Origin: Verrucomicrobiota bacterium | GTDB taxonomy: Bacteria; Verrucomicrobiota; Verrucomicrobiia; Verrucomicrobiales; DEV007 | NCBI GenBank assembly: GCA_027618625.1 | Contig: JAQCER010000293.1 | Location: 1 to 5,488 of the forward strand | Reading direction: 5' to 3' | DNA length: 5,488 nucleotides | Shown here: positions 1 to 5,488 of the stretch, piece after piece | How positions within the stretch are numbered: the first letter of the stretch is position 1 | How the letters are laid out: each line of letters opens with the position of its first letter | Notes under the pieces: model-generated | The model's input: only the letters and a program-made list of their open reading frames with translations | The model's database searches: none | Told to the model about the DNA's origin: nothing | Translations under genes and position numbers: made by a program

Positions 1-315
1 GAATTGGAATCTCCCGCCGCAACCCCCGCGGGATGGAAAGGCACGTTCCAGAAGGACGCGGATGGACTCGGCTACACGCTGGAATATGCGATTCCGTGGC
101 GGCTGCTGCATTGCGAGAACGATCCCCCGCGCGCCGGCGACGTCATGGGGGCGTTGTGGACGGTGCATTGGAGCGATGCCGACGGGCGAATCTGCCGCGG
201 GCAACTCGTCGATGTGTCGAACCCGCAAGCCCGTTCCAGGGCCGGAGTGCATCCGCCGGCGTTCTTCCTCGACGGCACGACCTGGGGCCGCGCTGTCTTC
301 CTTCCGAACCAATAG
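1..315 (+). CDS. C-terminal end of a protein with a CBM9/DOMON-like carbohydrate-binding domain (5' partial)
   Basis: The frame is open from base 1 to a TAG at 313-315, giving 104 codons of a C-terminus; the true start lies upstream. The TTG at base 4 is an internal Leu codon, since an in-frame Glu codon precedes it and no N-terminal signal is visible. Residues 24-33 read GYTLEYAIPW, followed by a 'GDVMGALWTVHWSDADGR' stretch and a terminal TTWGRAVF (about 93-100). This order (amphipathic 'Y.lE.aIPW' strand, Asp/Gly-rich turn, 'WG...' last strand) is typical of the last strands of CBM9-like/DOMON beta-sandwich domains, which bind sugars and often sit at the C-terminus of exported PVC-phylum proteins. 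Enzymatic domains, if any, lie off the window. The next gene starts 30 bases after the stop, so co-transcription is likely. The family call is by pattern only; the full-length function is unknown. Confidence 0.7.
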   Translation, partial: ELESPAATPAGWKGTFQKDADGLGYTLEYAIPWRLLHCENDPPRAGDVMGALWTVHWSDADGRICRGQLVDVSNPQARSRAGVHPPAFFLDGTTWGRAVFLPNQ

Positions 316-345
316 TCTTCGTCTGCCGGCCAATTATTTTACTTT

Positions 346-1479
346 ATGAAACATACATTCCATCCAACCAATCGCCGCCAATTTCTGGCCACCTCTGGAC
401 TTATCGCCGGGGCTGCCGTATCCCGACCGCTCTATGGGGCTGGGGCTGCCAGTAATGAGATCCACGTCGGGTGCATCGGAGTGGGCAACCGAGGGGCCGT
501 ACATGTGCGGGCGTTGCTGGCCACACCTGGGGTCCGCGTCGTGGCCATCTGTGACTTGAAACCCGAACGGGTCACTGCTGCTCAGGAAGCTGTCGTGGAA
601 GCCGGACAACCCAGGCCTTTCGGCACTGCCGATTGGAAGGAACTGCTCGCGCAACCAGACTTACAAGCTGTCACCAGCGCCTTGCCAGTCGATTTGCATG
701 CCGATTGTTATCAAGATGCACTCAAGGCCGGGAAAGATCTCTACGCTGAGAAGCCCATGTGCATTACACTGGCTGAGTGTGATGCGTTTGTGAAAGCCGC
801 CGAGGCCGCTAAAAATCAGATTGTGCAGATCGGGTTCCAACGCCGTGCGGATCCGAAGTTCATCGAATCTATGGAACTCATTCACAGCGGGGGCATCGGT
901 AAACTCATCGAAGGCCGCATCCTCTGGTCTAACGCCTGGGGACCGCTCTATGATTGGTTCGGCAAGAAGGAACGGTCGGGCGACTGGATGCTTGAGCAAG
1001 CGGTGCACAACTGGGATGTCATGAACTGGGCCAACCAGTGTCAGCCCAAACGGGCCATGGGCATGGGGATCGATACGCTGTTCCGCGAAAACCAGCCGGA
1101 TCGCAACGTGCATGACTACTACAGCGGGGTGCTGGAGTACGAAAATGGAGTGATCGTTAATATCCTTCATAGTTGGATCGCTCCCGGCGGACTGGATCGT
1201 GAATACACGCAACTGGTTGGCACGCAGGGTGGCATTGATTTCAATCCTGGCATGGTGACCTTCCGTTCTGACAGCAATAAAAAACCGCAGAAAGTGGGTG
1301 TTCGCGCAACTGCGGACAACACAGCCCTGGCCTTCGCAGCCTTTGCCAAATCGGTGCGCGATCGTTCTCCCAGCATTGCCCCCCCGAGCATGGGGCGCGC
1401 GGCAGTGGTTACGTGCCTGATGATGCGTGAAGCGGTGGCTAAAGGCACCGTCGTGACGCGCGAAGACATCGGGGCCTAG
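346..1479 (+). CDS. Tat-exported Gfo/Idh/MocA family NAD(P)-dependent sugar oxidoreductase
   Basis: The 377-residue product is complete. ATG 346 is the only plausible start: no ATG, GTG or TTG lies in frame between it and the preceding stop, and it places the leader at the N-terminus. Residues 9-14 are NRRQFL, a twin-arginine motif, followed by a hydrophobic stretch (LIAGAAV) and Ala-rich cleavage region to about 35. The Rossmann fold begins at 39-50 with GVGNRG (45-50) and an acidic Asp70 in ICDLKP. Residues 135-137 are EKP, with Lys136 as the family's likely catalytic lysine. A second conserved segment, LEQAVHNWD, carries His221 and Asp224. The C-terminal alpha/beta domain (YSGVLEYENGVIVN onward) completes the fold. 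Such Tat enzymes fold in the cytoplasm and are exported with bound nucleotide, as in GH109. Substrate is not readable. Its DUF1080/ThuA neighbour suggests oxidation of a sugar 3-hydroxyl, as for ThuB (inference). No clear Shine-Dalgarno precedes the start; the leader is AT-rich. Confidence 0.93.
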   Translation: MKHTFHPTNRRQFLATSGLIAGAAVSRPLYGAGAASNEIHVGCIGVGNRGAVHVRALLATPGVRVVAICDLKPERVTAAQEAVVEAGQPRPFGTADWKELLAQPDLQAVTSALPVDLHADCYQDALKAGKDLYAEKPMCITLAECDAFVKAAEAAKNQIVQIGFQRRADPKFIESMELIHSGGIGKLIEGRILWSNAWGPLYDWFGKKERSGDWMLEQAVHNWDVMNWANQCQPKRAMGMGIDTLFRENQPDRNVHDYYSGVLEYENGVIVNILHSWIAPGGLDREYTQLVGTQGGIDFNPGMVTFRSDSNKKPQKVGVRATADNTALAFAAFAKSVRDRSPSIAPPSMGRAAVVTCLMMREAVAKGTVVTREDIGA

Positions 1480-1509
1480 AATCGGCGGATCGCACTCAAA
1501 CCTCTCAGT

Positions 1510-1563
1510 ATGAAGCTCGTCAGCATTCCGTTTATCCTTGCTCTGACATCGCTGTCCCAGGCT
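1510..1563 (+). other. Sec signal peptide of the fusion protein
   Basis: Residues 1-18 are MKLVSIPFILALTSLSQA: a single Lys, a hydrophobic core, then a small-residue S-Q-A ending that fits signal peptidase I cleavage before Glu19. There is no Cys near the cleavage site, so it is not an obvious lipoprotein. It sends the whole fusion across the inner membrane, which agrees with the downstream c-type heme motif, because heme is attached outside the cytoplasm. Confidence 0.85.
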
Positions 1564-4500
1564 GAGCCCATCTCCCTCTTCGATGGTAAGTCGCTCGACG
1601 GCTGGGAGGGCGAAACAGCCAGGGTTTGGCGCGTCCGCGATGGGGTGATCGTCGGCGGTTCACTGGAGGGAAATCCAGCAAACGAATTTCTAACCACACA
1701 AAAGAGTTACGGCAATTTTGTCCTGCGGGTGGAATACAAACTGGTGGGCACAGAGGGATTCATCAATGGTGGAGTGCAGTTTCGCAGCCAGCGCGTCAAG
1801 AATCCACCGAATGAAATGCGCGGCTATCAGGCGGACATTGGCGGAGGATATTCCGGATCGCTTTACGATGAATCACGCCGCAACAGGGTGCTGGTTACAG
1901 CAGACAAGGCATTGGTCGACAAGCTGGAGAAACCCGGCGACTGGAACACCTACGAAGTCCGCTGCGAAGGCCCGCGCATTCGCCTGATACTCAATGGAAC
2001 CCAGACGGTGGACTTCACTGAAACGGAAGCAGGCATGGAAGCAGATGGCTTGATTGGTCTGCAGATCCACGCGGGCGCGAAATCGGAAATTTCGTTTCGC
2101 TCGCTAACGGTAGAGGAACTCCCGAAAGATGGCGCTAACGGTGCAAAAACAGAGCAGGGCAAAATCCCCAACAAGCCTGCCCCACCGCTGAATCGCTTCG
2201 CACCGGATGCGATTGTCCCACCGGTGACGACGCCATTTCCAGAAGGAAAGTTCACGCTGGGAGAACAGGAGACGGTGGTATTCGTGGGCGGGACGAACTT
2301 TGTGCGCGAGGCGAAGTCGGGCGAGTTGGAGGCGAGCCTGACGGAAGCGTTCGCCAAACAGAAGCCCGTTTTTCGCTCGATGGCGGTGGATGCGGACACC
2401 GTTTATTTGCAGGAGCGCGAGCTGAACTTCGGCACATGGCGGCAGCAGCTCGAAGCGGTCGGACCGACGGTGGTGATCGCGCAGTTCGGGCAGATGGAGG
2501 CGCTCGACGGCGTGGCCAGGCTGCCGGAGTTCGTCGCTGCGTATCATCGGCTGCTCGATGAATTTTCAGCCCGCACCGTGCGCATGGTGCTGGTCTCGCC
2601 GATGCGATTTGAAAAACCGGCCTTCCCTGACGTGCCAGATCTCACTGTGCGCAACGACGAGGTGCGCGCTTATGCGGAAGCGGTGAAGTCGATCGCTGCG
2701 CAGCGCGGTGCGGTGTTCGTGAATCTCGCCGAAGCTCAATATGCGGGAGGGGCTGAGGGTCGCGGCAGCGCAGGGCGACTCGCGGACGGGAGCCAGCGAA
2801 TCGCGGACAACGGCGTTCACCTGACCGATCTCGGGAGGTCGCTGATGGCGGATCTGATCTACGACTCGCTCGTACCGTCGCCAGCCCGAAAGCCCTCCGG
2901 GCATCCGGAGTTGCTTGCGGCGATCGTCGCCAAGAACCGCCTGTGGTCGCAATGCTGGCGGCCGGCCAACTGGCCCTTCGCCTACGGCGACCTCACCAGT
3001 TGGCCGTTCAGCAAACCTGCGGGCGGACAGCCGGATTTGCACGGTGCGCTTGCCCAGCATCGTCCGCTGCTCGTGCTGGCGGATGCCCGCATCGCGGCAA
3101 TCGCGAACGGCGGGAAGGCACCGCCGGCTCCGCCCGCTGACACGCCGCCGGCGGACGAAGCGGCGCTCACGCCAGAGGAGCAGCTCGCAACTTTCACCGT
3201 GGCCGATGGCTACGAGGTGACGCTCGTCGCATCGGAAAAGGACGGTGTGGTGAAGCCGATCCAGATTTCGTGGGACGAGCGCGGGCGCTTGCTGGTGGCG
3301 TGTTCGCCGGGCTACCCGCATCCCGAAGTCGGCGCCCCGCCGCGCGATTTCGTCCTCATGGCCGAGATGAAAGACGGCAAGGCGAGCAAGACGTGGCGCT
3401 ACGCCGACGGGCTGACGATGACGAACGGCATGGAGCCGGGCGACGGCGGCATGTTTGTCTGCGACTACGACGAACTGCTCCACTTCCGCGATACCGACAA
3501 CGATGGCAAAGCCGACCAGCGCCGCGTGGTGCTTTCCGGTTTCGGCATCGGCGACACGCATCAGCTCATCAACTCGATCAACCACGGCGACGACGGCTCG
3601 CTGTGGTTTTCGCAGGGGTATCACGTCCACTCGCACGTCGAAACGCCGTGGGGGATCGCGCGGCTTGATCGGGCCGCGGTCTGGCGGTTGCGTCCGCGCA
3701 CACTGCGGCTGGAGGGTTTTTTCAATCGCGCCAAGTCCGCGGCGAACTGCTGGGGCGTGGTCACAGATGACTGGGGAAACATCTTCCACAAAGGCGCCGA
3801 CCGCTCCCAAGGCTACTACAGCCAGCCCGGCCTCGTGCGCGCGGCGACGGGTTTCGTTCCGGACGAATACCATGGCGTGGGCGGGATGTTTCATAGCCAC
3901 AGCAAGACGATGTCCATCGACCTGCTCGGCTCAAAGGCCCTGCCCGACGACGCGCAGGGTTGCGCCGTCATCGCCGGCTTCATGGCGAGCGAAGTGGAGC
4001 TGCACCGCATCCTCGACGACGGCTCCGGCTTCCGAGCCACGCAGTTGCCCGTGTTGCTCAGTTCGTCGAACAACGCCTTCCGCCCCGTGGACGTGAGTCA
4101 GGGGCCCGACGGCGCGATCTACGTGTGCGACTTTTACAACCCGATCATCGGCCATTACCAGGCCAGCTACCGCGACCCGAAGCGCAACAAGAAGCATGGC
4201 CGCATCTGGCGCATCAGCGCGAAAGGCCGCGCGCCCGTGGTGCAACCGGACCTCGCGGCGATGGATGAAACGACGCTGCTGGCGCAACTCAGTTCCCCCG
4301 AACGCTGGACGCGCTATCAAGCTCAACGTCTGCTCTTCTGGAAACCCACCCATGCCGTGATCAAGGCCCTGGATGCCTGGACCGCCAGGACCACCGACGA
4401 ATCCCTCCTCCGCCAGGCTCTTGGCATCTACGAGGCTCACGAAACGGCGCGGCCTCAGTTGCTCCAGCGCTTGCTCGCCAGCAAGGACGCCCGCGTCCGC

Positions 4501-5488
4501 GCCTATGCCACGCGCATGGCGGGCATGTGGTCCGACCGCATTCCCGATGCTGTCGACCTCTTGAAAGATCGCGCCGCCGATCCCGATGCCCGCGTCCGCC
4601 TCGAAGCCATCGTCGCCGCCACCTACGTCGCCAGGCCGGAAGCCGTGGAAATTCCCGCCATCGCCTCCGGTCAGCCTGGGGATAAATTTATCGACTACTC
4701 CCTAACCCAAAGCATCAGAGCCCTCAAACCCCAGTGGCAGCCGCACCTGGACAAACTGACCTTCGCTGGAAATGCCACCCAGCGTGATTTCGTCACCCTC
4801 ACTGGCGGCGCAGCCCCGCCACCAGAGCATCCCGGCAAGCCCATTTACGATTCCATCTGCATGAACTGCCACCAGGCCAACGCCCTGGGATTGCCGAAAA
4901 TTTATCCACCCCTGGCCGGCAGCGAATGGGTCAAGGGCGACAAAGGAGCCCTCATCAAAATGCTCCTCCACGGCCTCTCCGGACCCATCACCCTGAAAGG
5001 CGAACCCTACGGCACCGGCAACCCCATTCCCATGCCGCCCAGCGGACTCGATGACCAAAAAACCGCCGATGTCCTCACCTACATCCGCGCCAGCTTCGGC
5101 AACAAAGCCGATGCCGTCACCGCCGAAGAAGTCCGCGCCCTCCGCGAAAAACACAAAGACCGCAGCACCCTCTGGACCATCCCGGAACTCGCATCCGGGA
5201 TCGCCCTCGCGAAAACGGCGGACGGAAAATCCAAGCTCGTCATCGTCGCGGGAAAGCCGTCGCACCCGCCGCGGATGCATGAGTTCAACGCGGGGACGCA
5301 ACTGCTCGCAAAATGTCTCGCACAGGGTGCGCCGGAGTTGCATGTCGATGTCATCCTCAACGGATGGCCGGCCGATGAGAAGATTTTCGACGGCGCGGAT
5401 GCGGTCGTTTTCTACATGGACGGCGGGCCGAATCACGAAGTCGTGAAGGGCGACGGCTCGCGCATCGCGAAGGTCGAGGCGTGGGTGA
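1510..5488 (+). CDS. Giant exported fusion: DUF1080 + SGNH-like + dehydrogenase-type propeller + HEAT + cytochrome c + ThuA (3' partial)
   Basis: One frame stays open from ATG 1510 to the window edge (at least 1326 codons, no internal stop). ATG 1510 is chosen because it begins a clear signal peptide; no other usual start codon lies in frame after the TAG at 1477. Order by residue: signal peptide 1-18, DUF1080 21-204, linker, SGNH-like 254-456, conserved 'WRPANW' segment near 482, Pro/Ala linker 538-557, propeller 555-906, HEAT-like 918-1052, cytochrome c 1109-1197, ThuA from 1240. The SGNH-propeller-HEAT-CxxCH core matches the 'PVC-type heme-binding' proteins (TIGR02604-like). DUF1080 in front and ThuA behind are usually separate proteins or found in other fusions. 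It should act outside the cytoplasm. A role in 3-keto-sugar cleavage coupled to electron transfer is inference. Spacing to the dehydrogenase gene is 30 bases. Codon preference changes sharply along the gene. Its C-terminus is unseen. Confidence 0.9.
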   Translation, partial: MKLVSIPFILALTSLSQAEPISLFDGKSLDGWEGETARVWRVRDGVIVGGSLEGNPANEFLTTQKSYGNFVLRVEYKLVGTEGFINGGVQFRSQRVKNPPNEMRGYQADIGGGYSGSLYDESRRNRVLVTADKALVDKLEKPGDWNTYEVRCEGPRIRLILNGTQTVDFTETEAGMEADGLIGLQIHAGAKSEISFRSLTVEELPKDGANGAKTEQGKIPNKPAPPLNRFAPDAIVPPVTTPFPEGKFTLGEQETVVFVGGTNFVREAKSGELEASLTEAFAKQKPVFRSMAVDADTVYLQERELNFGTWRQQLEAVGPTVVIAQFGQMEALDGVARLPEFVAAYHRLLDEFSARTVRMVLVSPMRFEKPAFPDVPDLTVRNDEVRAYAEAVKSIAAQRGAVFVNLAEAQYAGGAEGRGSAGRLADGSQRIADNGVHLTDLGRSLMADLIYDSLVPSPARKPSGHPELLAAIVAKNRLWSQCWRPANWPFAYGDLTSWPFSKPAGGQPDLHGALAQHRPLLVLADARIAAIANGGKAPPAPPADTPPADEAALTPEEQLATFTVADGYEVTLVASEKDGVVKPIQISWDERGRLLVACSPGYPHPEVGAPPRDFVLMAEMKDGKASKTWRYADGLTMTNGMEPGDGGMFVCDYDELLHFRDTDNDGKADQRRVVLSGFGIGDTHQLINSINHGDDGSLWFSQGYHVHSHVETPWGIARLDRAAVWRLRPRTLRLEGFFNRAKSAANCWGVVTDDWGNIFHKGADRSQGYYSQPGLVRAATGFVPDEYHGVGGMFHSHSKTMSIDLLGSKALPDDAQGCAVIAGFMASEVELHRILDDGSGFRATQLPVLLSSSNNAFRPVDVSQGPDGAIYVCDFYNPIIGHYQASYRDPKRNKKHGRIWRISAKGRAPVVQPDLAAMDETTLLAQLSSPERWTRYQAQRLLFWKPTHAVIKALDAWTARTTDESLLRQALGIYEAHETARPQLLQRLLASKDARVRAYATRMAGMWSDRIPDAVDLLKDRAADPDARVRLEAIVAATYVARPEAVEIPAIASGQPGDKFIDYSLTQSIRALKPQWQPHLDKLTFAGNATQRDFVTLTGGAAPPPEHPGKPIYDSICMNCHQANALGLPKIYPPLAGSEWVKGDKGALIKMLLHGLSGPITLKGEPYGTGNPIPMPPSGLDDQKTADVLTYIRASFGNKADAVTAEEVRALREKHKDRSTLWTIPELASGIALAKTADGKSKLVIVAGKPSHPPRMHEFNAGTQLLAKCLAQGAPELHVDVILNGWPADEKIFDGADAVVFYMDGGPNHEVVKGDGSRIAKVEAWV
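1570..2121 (+). other. DUF1080 / 3-keto-disaccharide hydrolase-like domain (PF06439 type)
   Basis: Residues 21-204 form a concanavalin-like domain with the family's hallmarks: LFDGKSLDGW at 23-32, NGGVQFRS at 86-93, GYQADIG at 105-111, YDE at 119-121, a 'PGDWNTYEV' strand, 'NGTQTVDF', and GLQIHAG with His187. The segments are in the canonical order and the length is that of a full domain, so it looks intact. Characterised members hydrolyse or eliminate the glycosidic bond of 3-keto glycosides made by a partner oxidoreductase; here that partner would be the Gfo/Idh/MocA gene just upstream (inference). Many PVC members remain uncharacterised, so the reaction is not certain. Confidence 0.88.
2269..2877 (+). 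other. SGNH/GDSL-hydrolase-like domain with degenerate active site
   Basis: Residues 254-456 follow the pattern of the SGNH-like domain that precedes the propeller in PVC-type heme proteins: an ETVVFVGGTN first strand (254-263), a 'LNFGTWRQQL' region, FGQMEAL (326-332), a 'VRMVLVSPMRFE' strand and DNGVHLTD (433-440). Block I has GGTN where classical enzymes have GDS(L), so the nucleophilic Ser is absent. Block III has Met329 where relatives commonly have the Asn of G-x-N. His437 is kept, but the residue three before it is Asn, not Asp. It may be a binding or structural module rather than an esterase (inference). An 'NRLWSQCWRPANW' segment at about 476-488, also typical of this protein class, follows. 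Confidence 0.72.
3172..4227 (+). other. PVC-type putative membrane-bound dehydrogenase beta-propeller domain (TIGR02604-like)
   Basis: Residues 555-906 carry hallmarks of this propeller class: 'PEEQLATFTVADGYEVTLVA' at the start, 'PIQISWDERGRLLVA', an acidic DTDNDGKAD loop (661-669) resembling a calcium-binding turn, GDTHQLINS with His684, HVHSHVETPWG with His705/707/709, 'WGVVTDDWGN', HSHSKT with His795/797, and near the end 'DFYNPIIGHYQ' and 'HGRIWRI'. Relatives resemble glucose/sorbosone dehydrogenase propellers and are annotated as putative membrane-bound dehydrogenases, but their substrates are mostly unknown. No transmembrane segment is evident here. A Pro/Ala-rich linker at about 538-557 separates it from the SGNH-like domain. 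Fusion to a cytochrome c is consistent with electron transfer from a sugar-type substrate (inference). Confidence 0.87.
4261..4665 (+). other. HEAT-like alpha-helical repeats
   Basis: Residues about 918-1052 are helical and contain repeat signatures such as 'LSSPERWTRYQAQRLL', 'LLASKDARVRAYATRMAG' and 'RAADPDARVRLEAIVAA', each with the D-x-x-V-R or equivalent turn of HEAT repeats. This is the usual spacer between propeller and cytochrome c in PVC-type heme proteins. Probably a scaffold positioning the heme domain; no catalytic residues are apparent. Confidence 0.75.
4834..5100 (+). other. Class I cytochrome c domain with CMNCH heme-binding site
   Basis: Residues 1109-1197 contain Cys1117-x-x-Cys1120-His1121 (CMNCH), the covalent c-type heme site with His as proximal ligand, after a typical 'GKPIYDSI' helix. 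'YPPLAGSEWV' and 'LLHGLSGPI' follow in the usual order, and Met1175 in IPMPPSG is the likely distal ligand, followed by the C-terminal helix 'ADVLTYIRASFG'. All expected elements are present, so the domain should bind heme. It presumably passes electrons from a dehydrogenase domain to the respiratory chain or a periplasmic acceptor (inference). Confidence 0.92.
5227..5488 (+). other. Start of a ThuA-like (trehalose utilisation) domain, cut by the window edge
   Basis: From residue 1240 the sequence reads KSKLVIVAGKPSH, followed by 'HEFNAGTQLLAKCL', 'VDVILNGWPADEKIFDGADA' and VVFYMDGGPNH. These are the first strands and helices of the ThuA class I amidotransferase-like fold: a beta strand ending in a Gly/Ser/His loop, a His1257-containing helix start, and the 'D..V.Y.DGG..H' segment. 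Only about 87 residues are visible; a full domain usually needs over 200. ThuA acts with the ThuB dehydrogenase in rhizobial trehalose and related disaccharide use through 3-keto intermediates. Its presence after DUF1080 and near a ThuB-family gene strengthens a keto-sugar theme. Confidence 0.82.

Follow-up and report, generated by a model that had tools for sequence, protein, structure and literature searches.

A six-module reading frame in a Verrucomicrobiota contig probably joins a five-module cytochrome protein to part of a separate ThuA gene

The reading frame and its two parts

Does the long open reading frame of contig JAQCER010000293.1, from a Verrucomicrobiota draft genome, encode a natural six-module enzyme, or do two genes meet in it that are separate in the cell? 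The stretch of DNA analyzed, referred to as the window, is the complete contig (C277 in our numbering; 5488 bases) of a genome bin that comprises 941 contigs and is 70.8% complete. On the forward strand, a frame runs from the ATG at 1510 to its last codon at 5485–5487; its translation of 1326 residues contains no stop and is still open at the contig end, and chance does not explain its stop-free length. The original prediction had read this frame as one exported chain of DUF1080, SGNH-like, propeller, HEAT-like, cytochrome c and ThuA modules. Pfam identifies DUF1080, Lipase_GDSL_2, DUF7133, HEAT_2 and Cytochrom_C in this order and, together with NCBIfam, agrees with the identities and order proposed for the first five modules. 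The sixth, in the last 98 residues, is assigned to ThuA by homology only and covers just the front third of such a protein; its fusion to the others is not upheld here as biology. We consider it probable that the stop codon is missing because the 3′ end of the cytochrome gene was joined, through an assembly chimera, into the predicted signal peptide of a separate ThuA gene. We infer that the join arose in assembly and not in the cell; because two pieces of DNA were likely joined wrongly, the fusion of six parts probably does not exist as an enzyme.

The five-module part of the frame is an ordinary protein of an already known kind from the Planctomycetes-Verrucomicrobia-Chlamydiae (PVC) group, and is predicted to be exported. 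From ∼5.8 billion proteins, a search scored 7994 candidates and retained 875 as matches; 120 of these homologs were listed. The SGNH-propeller-HEAT-heme core, which had been recognized as a PVC architecture, is common among them, and DUF1080 precedes it in 97 of the 120 (it is absent in 23, including the protein P0001 discussed below). In the bin and its 56 relatives, all but one of the 57 genomes had some match, and the five-module family appears by homology to be common among Verrucomicrobiota sequences. A PVC-type heme-binding CxxCH protein of Verrucomicrobium spinosum (P0044, 1222 residues) has the same five modules in the same order according to Pfam, as does a putative membrane-bound dehydrogenase domain protein of Prosthecobacter debontii (P0120, 1204 residues). 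Both are 55% identical to the window protein over 91–92% of the query, but they stop at the native cytochrome C-terminus, without ThuA, where the window runs on. As to how common the whole combination is, which had been left undecided, the combination of DUF1080 and core is thus frequent, while neither cytochrome c followed by ThuA nor the complete DUF1080-SGNH-propeller-HEAT-cytochrome c-ThuA arrangement was seen in another member of this family (0 of the 120 listed homologs).

The ThuA-type segment (5194–5487, + strand) is cut by the contig end. It is 85% identical over 92% of its length to P0121, a protein that itself matches PF06283 with 60 bits, and it aligns to residues 14–111 of the 307 residues of P0121, or about the first third of the ThuA protein. 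Pfam gave no match for the ThuA part in the full frame, nor any family (0) for residues 1228–1326 alone, and the window contig was not among the listed matches of a PF06283 search of the bin. The nearest relatives of the tail are stand-alone proteins, most of them 305–312 residues long. P0121–P0128 (79–85% identity to the tail) each exist as a separate protein with a signal peptide of its own; in G567, the ThuA (76% identity) is likewise a separate gene, of 309 residues. Of 120 listed relatives of the tail, the 118 with a GKxS anchor motif were scored, signal peptides being judged by a hydrophobic stretch before the anchor; such a stretch precedes the mature start in 117. Residues 1229–1234 of the window protein (SGIALA) align to the ends of these signal peptides, and Lys1235 (nucleotide 5212) would correspond to the mature start.

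The join between cytochrome c and ThuA

The junction, at 5182–5200 (+ strand), was placed by alignments from both sides. Here the native C-terminus of the cytochrome protein, PELA, is followed directly by SGIALA and then, from the mature start of ThuA, by KTADG. The join therefore lies inside the ThuA signal peptide, of which only the last residues remain. In the listed relatives of this family, contrary to the original prediction, cytochrome c and ThuA do not share a frame: all 120 listed homologs have a stop and end no more than 8 residues past the position of residue 1228, and the nearest ThuA proteins are the separate ones described above. At the level of genome loci, cytochrome c matches of at least 100 residues number 33 (from L021–L033 and L050–L105, which are partly redundant loci), and 32 of them stop within 8 codons of the match end. 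The other one, at L087, continues for 67 codons past its cytochrome match.

Codon usage also changes near the junction. The best change-point in third-position G/C usage is at 5209, and none of 2000 shuffles gave one as strong; comparison of the 100 codons before the join with the 98 after it gave a Fisher P-value of 3.6×10−7. A C-rich codon style towards the stop was also observed in L050, L051 and L054. The contig ends ∼290 bases beyond the join.

A stop loss or a frameshift at the native end was considered and rejected. The native last codons are replaced, and neither of the other two frames has a stop nearby. Since these frames are stop-free before 5280 and 5444, where their first stops occur, a single indel or the loss of a stop would not explain the read-through. 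The five-module protein appears complete, its stop codon likely missing because of the junction to the ThuA gene.

Several observations weigh against an origin in assembly. The join is in frame, although two coding sequences joined at random would be in frame about one third of the time. A stand-alone copy of this exact ThuA was found neither in the bin (next best 48%) nor in the protein set (best 85%), leaving the other parent of the chimera unseen. Short-read assemblers do not normally join on as few bases as could be shared here. Finally, cytochrome c followed by ThuA is, by its recurrence in sequence, natural, if uncommon, in a different PVC family, in which four cases were seen (L203, L204, L242 and L243). 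In the ThuA listing of the 57 genomes, 30 other matches in frames of at least 900 residues were located. ThuA is N-terminal (start below residue 300) in 26 of these and lies at residue 415 of 1738 in L214; L195 is a DUF1080-ThuA frame, and L203 and L204 have CxxCH ahead of ThuA, as checked with Pfam. When 386 genomes of the order were compared, L242 (1505 residues) and L243 (1520 residues) followed as the next best matches to the ThuA of L204 (66–67%), again with CxxCH ahead of ThuA; these two were located by motif only, and further long frames match at 50–58%.

The frames of L204 (1311 residues; 5299–9231, − strand) and L203 (1535 residues; 2030–6634, + strand) resemble the window in having ThuA after CxxCH. 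Unlike the window, they have no DUF1080 match and carry a nearly complete ThuA behind a linker. L203 also has SGNH between the cytochrome and ThuA, a module order unlike that of the main five-module family. ThuA and the PVC cytochrome core likewise share one chain in the ThuA-NPCBM-DUF7133-HEAT-cytochrome c proteins P0242, P0246 and P0247, but there ThuA is N-terminal and NPCBM replaces DUF1080 and SGNH (Pfam on P0242).

These frames lend some weight to the main alternative, that the window records a real and very recent gene fusion: with a ThuA gene lying downstream of the cytochrome gene, a deletion between the two would have taken out the stop together with most of the ThuA signal peptide. 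We regard this as possible but rather unlikely. A deletion of this kind would account for an in-frame join in which Ala-Leu-Ala-Lys, from the signal and mature start of ThuA, is retained, and the gene gains or loses modules, as in P0001, which is without DUF1080. However, the fusion is absent from all 120 listed homologs, the signal-peptide remnant would sit in the middle of the chain without a linker, and no ThuA match was found in the fetched flanks of the closest relatives, L050–L055 (for L053, only ∼340 bases downstream). The genomes of eight such relative loci hold ThuA elsewhere, at most 56% identical to the tail. When 10 matches extending past the cytochrome were fetched from among those listed for 286 genomes of the class, none of the stretches contained a ThuA match. 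No second copy of the join was found in the sequences searched.

Much less probable still is the suggestion of the original prediction, an enzyme that would have evolved as one working chain of six modules, with a keto-sugar-acting module on either side of an electron carrier. Modules do recombine freely in PVC sugar proteins, as in P0242 (ThuA-NPCBM-DUF7133-HEAT-cytochrome c), L195 (DUF1080-ThuA) and L204 (propeller-HEAT-cytochrome c-ThuA). Against such an enzyme, the arrangement is absent from the relatives searched, the junction falls inside a signal peptide, and the tail is 85% identical to stand-alone proteins, compared to 55–58% to fused ones. A tail-restricted search of long proteins found seven, and ThuA is N-terminal in all seven. 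Correcting the six-module claim, and giving the likely cause of the join as a chimera in assembly, should keep it from being propagated as a new architecture.

The junction between DUF1080 and the core

A chimeric contig could have been joined in more than one place. The DUF1080 part, with the upstream oxidoreductase, might come from another genome than the propeller core, and the relationship of the window to its closest relative bears on this. P0001, a metagenome protein from a cluster of 83, is 97% identical to the window over residues 217–1230 and ends in ELAPGK and a stop. It has a signal peptide, an SGNH-like domain (slightly under the Pfam cut-off), a propeller, HEAT repeats and cytochrome c in common with the window. 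It differs in being without ThuA and without DUF1080, which has apparently been deleted to a short remnant.

The signal-peptide-like segment of the window, MKLVSIPFILALTSLSQA (1510–1563, + strand), was read by eye from the translation; 22 of the 24 N-terminal residues are shared with P0001. Over the compared region (window 1564–2175), P0001 reads AEPISPF-GKIPNKP where the window has AEPISLFDGK, the DUF1080 domain and then GKIPNKP. The deletion point in P0001 would fall at the GK of the linker GKIPNKPAPPLNRF (2113–2193, + strand), about where codon composition shifts in the window. P0001 thus reads as derived, by loss of DUF1080, from an ancestor that carried it. The link drawn in the original prediction between DUF1080 and the SGNH-like domain is kept in most listed relatives but not in all, the 97%-identical P0001 being among those without it. 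In a tree of the core (121 tips), DUF1080 changes state six times by parsimony; the window groups with P0001, P0006 and P0013, all without DUF1080, and the next branch is P0002, with DUF1080.

Composition gives a less uniform picture. Third-position guanine-plus-cytosine (GC3) content in the window is 0.63 in DUF1080 and 0.79 in the core, while the difference was at most 0.05 in all 11 DUF1080-bearing loci checked (this comparison used 16 loci hand-picked from 56, with other five-module loci, such as L063, L064 and L077, excluded). For word usage, the bin was sampled by 20 of its 941 contigs, six of them picked for carrying related genes. Window 316–2150 fits the tetranucleotide profile of the bin (rank 18 of 69 chunks). 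With chunks of 1900 bases, the two core chunks are more distant from the bin mean than any of the bin's own 69; with chunks of 1500 bases, one of two core chunks falls within the range spanned by 89 chunks of the bin itself. Expressed as a ratio to the median, the core distance is 1.46, against 0.61–1.18 in the loci of 12 relatives (3–5 flank chunks each). Word usage is, therefore, only suggestive of a core foreign to the bin. The GC content of window 2200–5190, 0.64–0.65, is higher than that of all 20 sampled bin contigs (0.547–0.600). The close relatives of the core (74–87% identity) come from genomes outside the 57, those of L052, L053 and L055 belonging to other families (f45, f45 and f2); the best match within the bin's own family is at ∼55%, and no near copy turned up when the DNA of 74 genomes of that family was searched. 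Given the high GC content, the poor fit to the word usage of the bin and the closest orthologs in other families, the core may have been acquired, or the contig may be misbinned.

A contig chimeric in two places would fit the contrast in GC3 content, the word usage of 316–2150 against that of the core, and a core whose nearest relatives are without DUF1080. Nevertheless, we consider it improbable. P0001 shares the window's signal peptide, in an otherwise variable region, and an apparent remnant of the DUF1080 start, so that DUF1080 and the core were probably already linked in the common ancestor. The same link is also present in P0002–P0005 (77–79% identity). In all 16 relatives' loci, the GC content of the core exceeds that of the upstream flank, by 0.02–0.07, and the window, at 0.055, is within this range. 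The link between DUF1080 and SGNH is, as judged from these homologs, natural in the five-module family, and we infer that recombination took place in a DUF1080-bearing ancestor, rather than a second chimera having formed. The bin also contains a stand-alone gene for a DUF1080 of the same subtype, 58% identical and interrupted by a frame change (1073–1698 of L172, from G000:C194).

The differences between P0001 and the window could also be taken, tentatively and with more doubt than the recent deletion above, as domain shuffling in the act. The same cytochrome gene, at ∼3% protein divergence, would then occur with no DUF1080 in P0001, with a DUF1080 of foreign codon usage in the window, and now with a ThuA captured at its C-terminus. 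If true, such shuffling would combine a sugar oxidase and a hydrolase on one chain, wired internally for electron transfer.

Domains of the five-module protein and upstream genes

The DUF1080, or 3-keto-disaccharide hydrolase, domain (residues 20–201; 1567–2112, + strand) matches PF06439 with 137 bits (E = 8×10−40; cut-off 26.8 bits), covering positions 2–186 of the 187-position profile. It has a sequence match to 4jqt in the PDB, and its fold matches include BT3469, BT2157 and 3-keto-glycoside eliminase/hydratases (3osd, 8tda, 8rr2, 8v31). An excerpt of one report (PMC9007349) assigns 3-ketotrehalose hydrolase activity to BT2157. The fold is common to BT2157, the eliminase/hydratases and the window, but identities of 17–19% do not imply a shared substrate, and these proteins are without the cytochrome core.

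The SGNH/GDSL-like domain (residues 286–442 in Pfam; 2365–2835, + strand) scores 33.4 bits against PF13472, just above the cut-off of 32.9, whereas P0001 is slightly under it at 32.1; a fold match was obtained to 4q9a. The usual serine of block I, which we take to be the catalytic motif of SGNH/GDSL proteins, is missing in the window (region 2278–2301) and nearly all listed homologs. At position 261, Q occurs in 87, G in 32 and E in one, and position 262 is Ser in only 1 of 120. An invariant His is kept across the 120 listed homologs. Because the block-I serine is missing in nearly all of them, the SGNH-like domain of the five-module family is probably not a hydrolase.

The propeller (residues 555–905; 3172–4224, + strand) matches DUF7133 (PF23500; E = 1.5×10−58, 199 bits, cut-off 27) and NCBIfam TIGR02604 (173 bits, cut-off 122). 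In the structural model, its predicted fold resembles that of pyrroloquinoline quinone (PQQ)-dependent sugar dehydrogenases, including the AA12 pyranose dehydrogenase (6jt5, 6h7t, 3a9g). A PDB sequence search with the propeller alone, to E = 10, gave only chance matches and no sugar dehydrogenase. HEAT repeats (residues 982–1046, Pfam HEAT_2; 4453–4647, + strand) match PF13646 with 28.3 bits (cut-off 27.7), and are surrounded by helical repeats in the model. The mono-heme cytochrome c domain (4834–5088, + strand; PF00034 at residues 1109–1193, E = 1.6×10−7) has its heme site CMNCH at residues 1117–1121 (nucleotides 4858–4872). The two cysteines and the histidine are invariant in all 120 listed homologs, and Met1175 is conserved. 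In the PDB, it matches copper nitrite reductase in that enzyme's cytochrome c domain (6qpv). The model of residues 19–1217, built with an 84-row alignment, has a predicted local distance difference test (pLDDT) score of 87; a single-sequence model of residues 218–1230 (pLDDT of 35) was useless.

Fold and family resemblance suggest how the five-module protein might work. After export, the propeller would oxidize a sugar or glycoside in the manner of PQQ sugar dehydrogenases, with electrons handed first to the tethered c-type heme and then to the respiratory chain. DUF1080 would cleave or hydrate a 3-keto-glycoside, whose source would be either the same propeller or a dehydrogenase encoded separately, for example the neighboring Gfo/Idh/MocA protein. 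The SGNH-like domain, since its nucleophile is absent, may bind rather than hydrolyze. In the papers found, no functional test of the five-module family is reported. The family is well suited to the question of whether PVC cytochromes act as sugar dehydrogenases whose reaction is coupled to the cleavage of 3-keto-glycosides, and proteins that are 97% identical but differ in having or lacking DUF1080 offer a natural experiment for it.

At the left end of the window, 1–315 (+ strand) is the end of an open frame with a GC content of about 0.66 and no Pfam match. It is followed by the Gfo/Idh/MocA oxidoreductase, a separate gene (346–1476, + strand) that matches PF01408 and PF22725 but falls below every NCBIfam cut-off. 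Among the loci printed, a comparable gene was seen beside the homologs only in the window itself, and no match at E = 10−30 was found in 31 other genomes; this conservation search says nothing about origin. The stop codon of the gene ends 30 bases before the frame at 1510, and its N-terminus, read by eye, resembles a twin-arginine translocation (Tat) signal (NRRQFLATSG).

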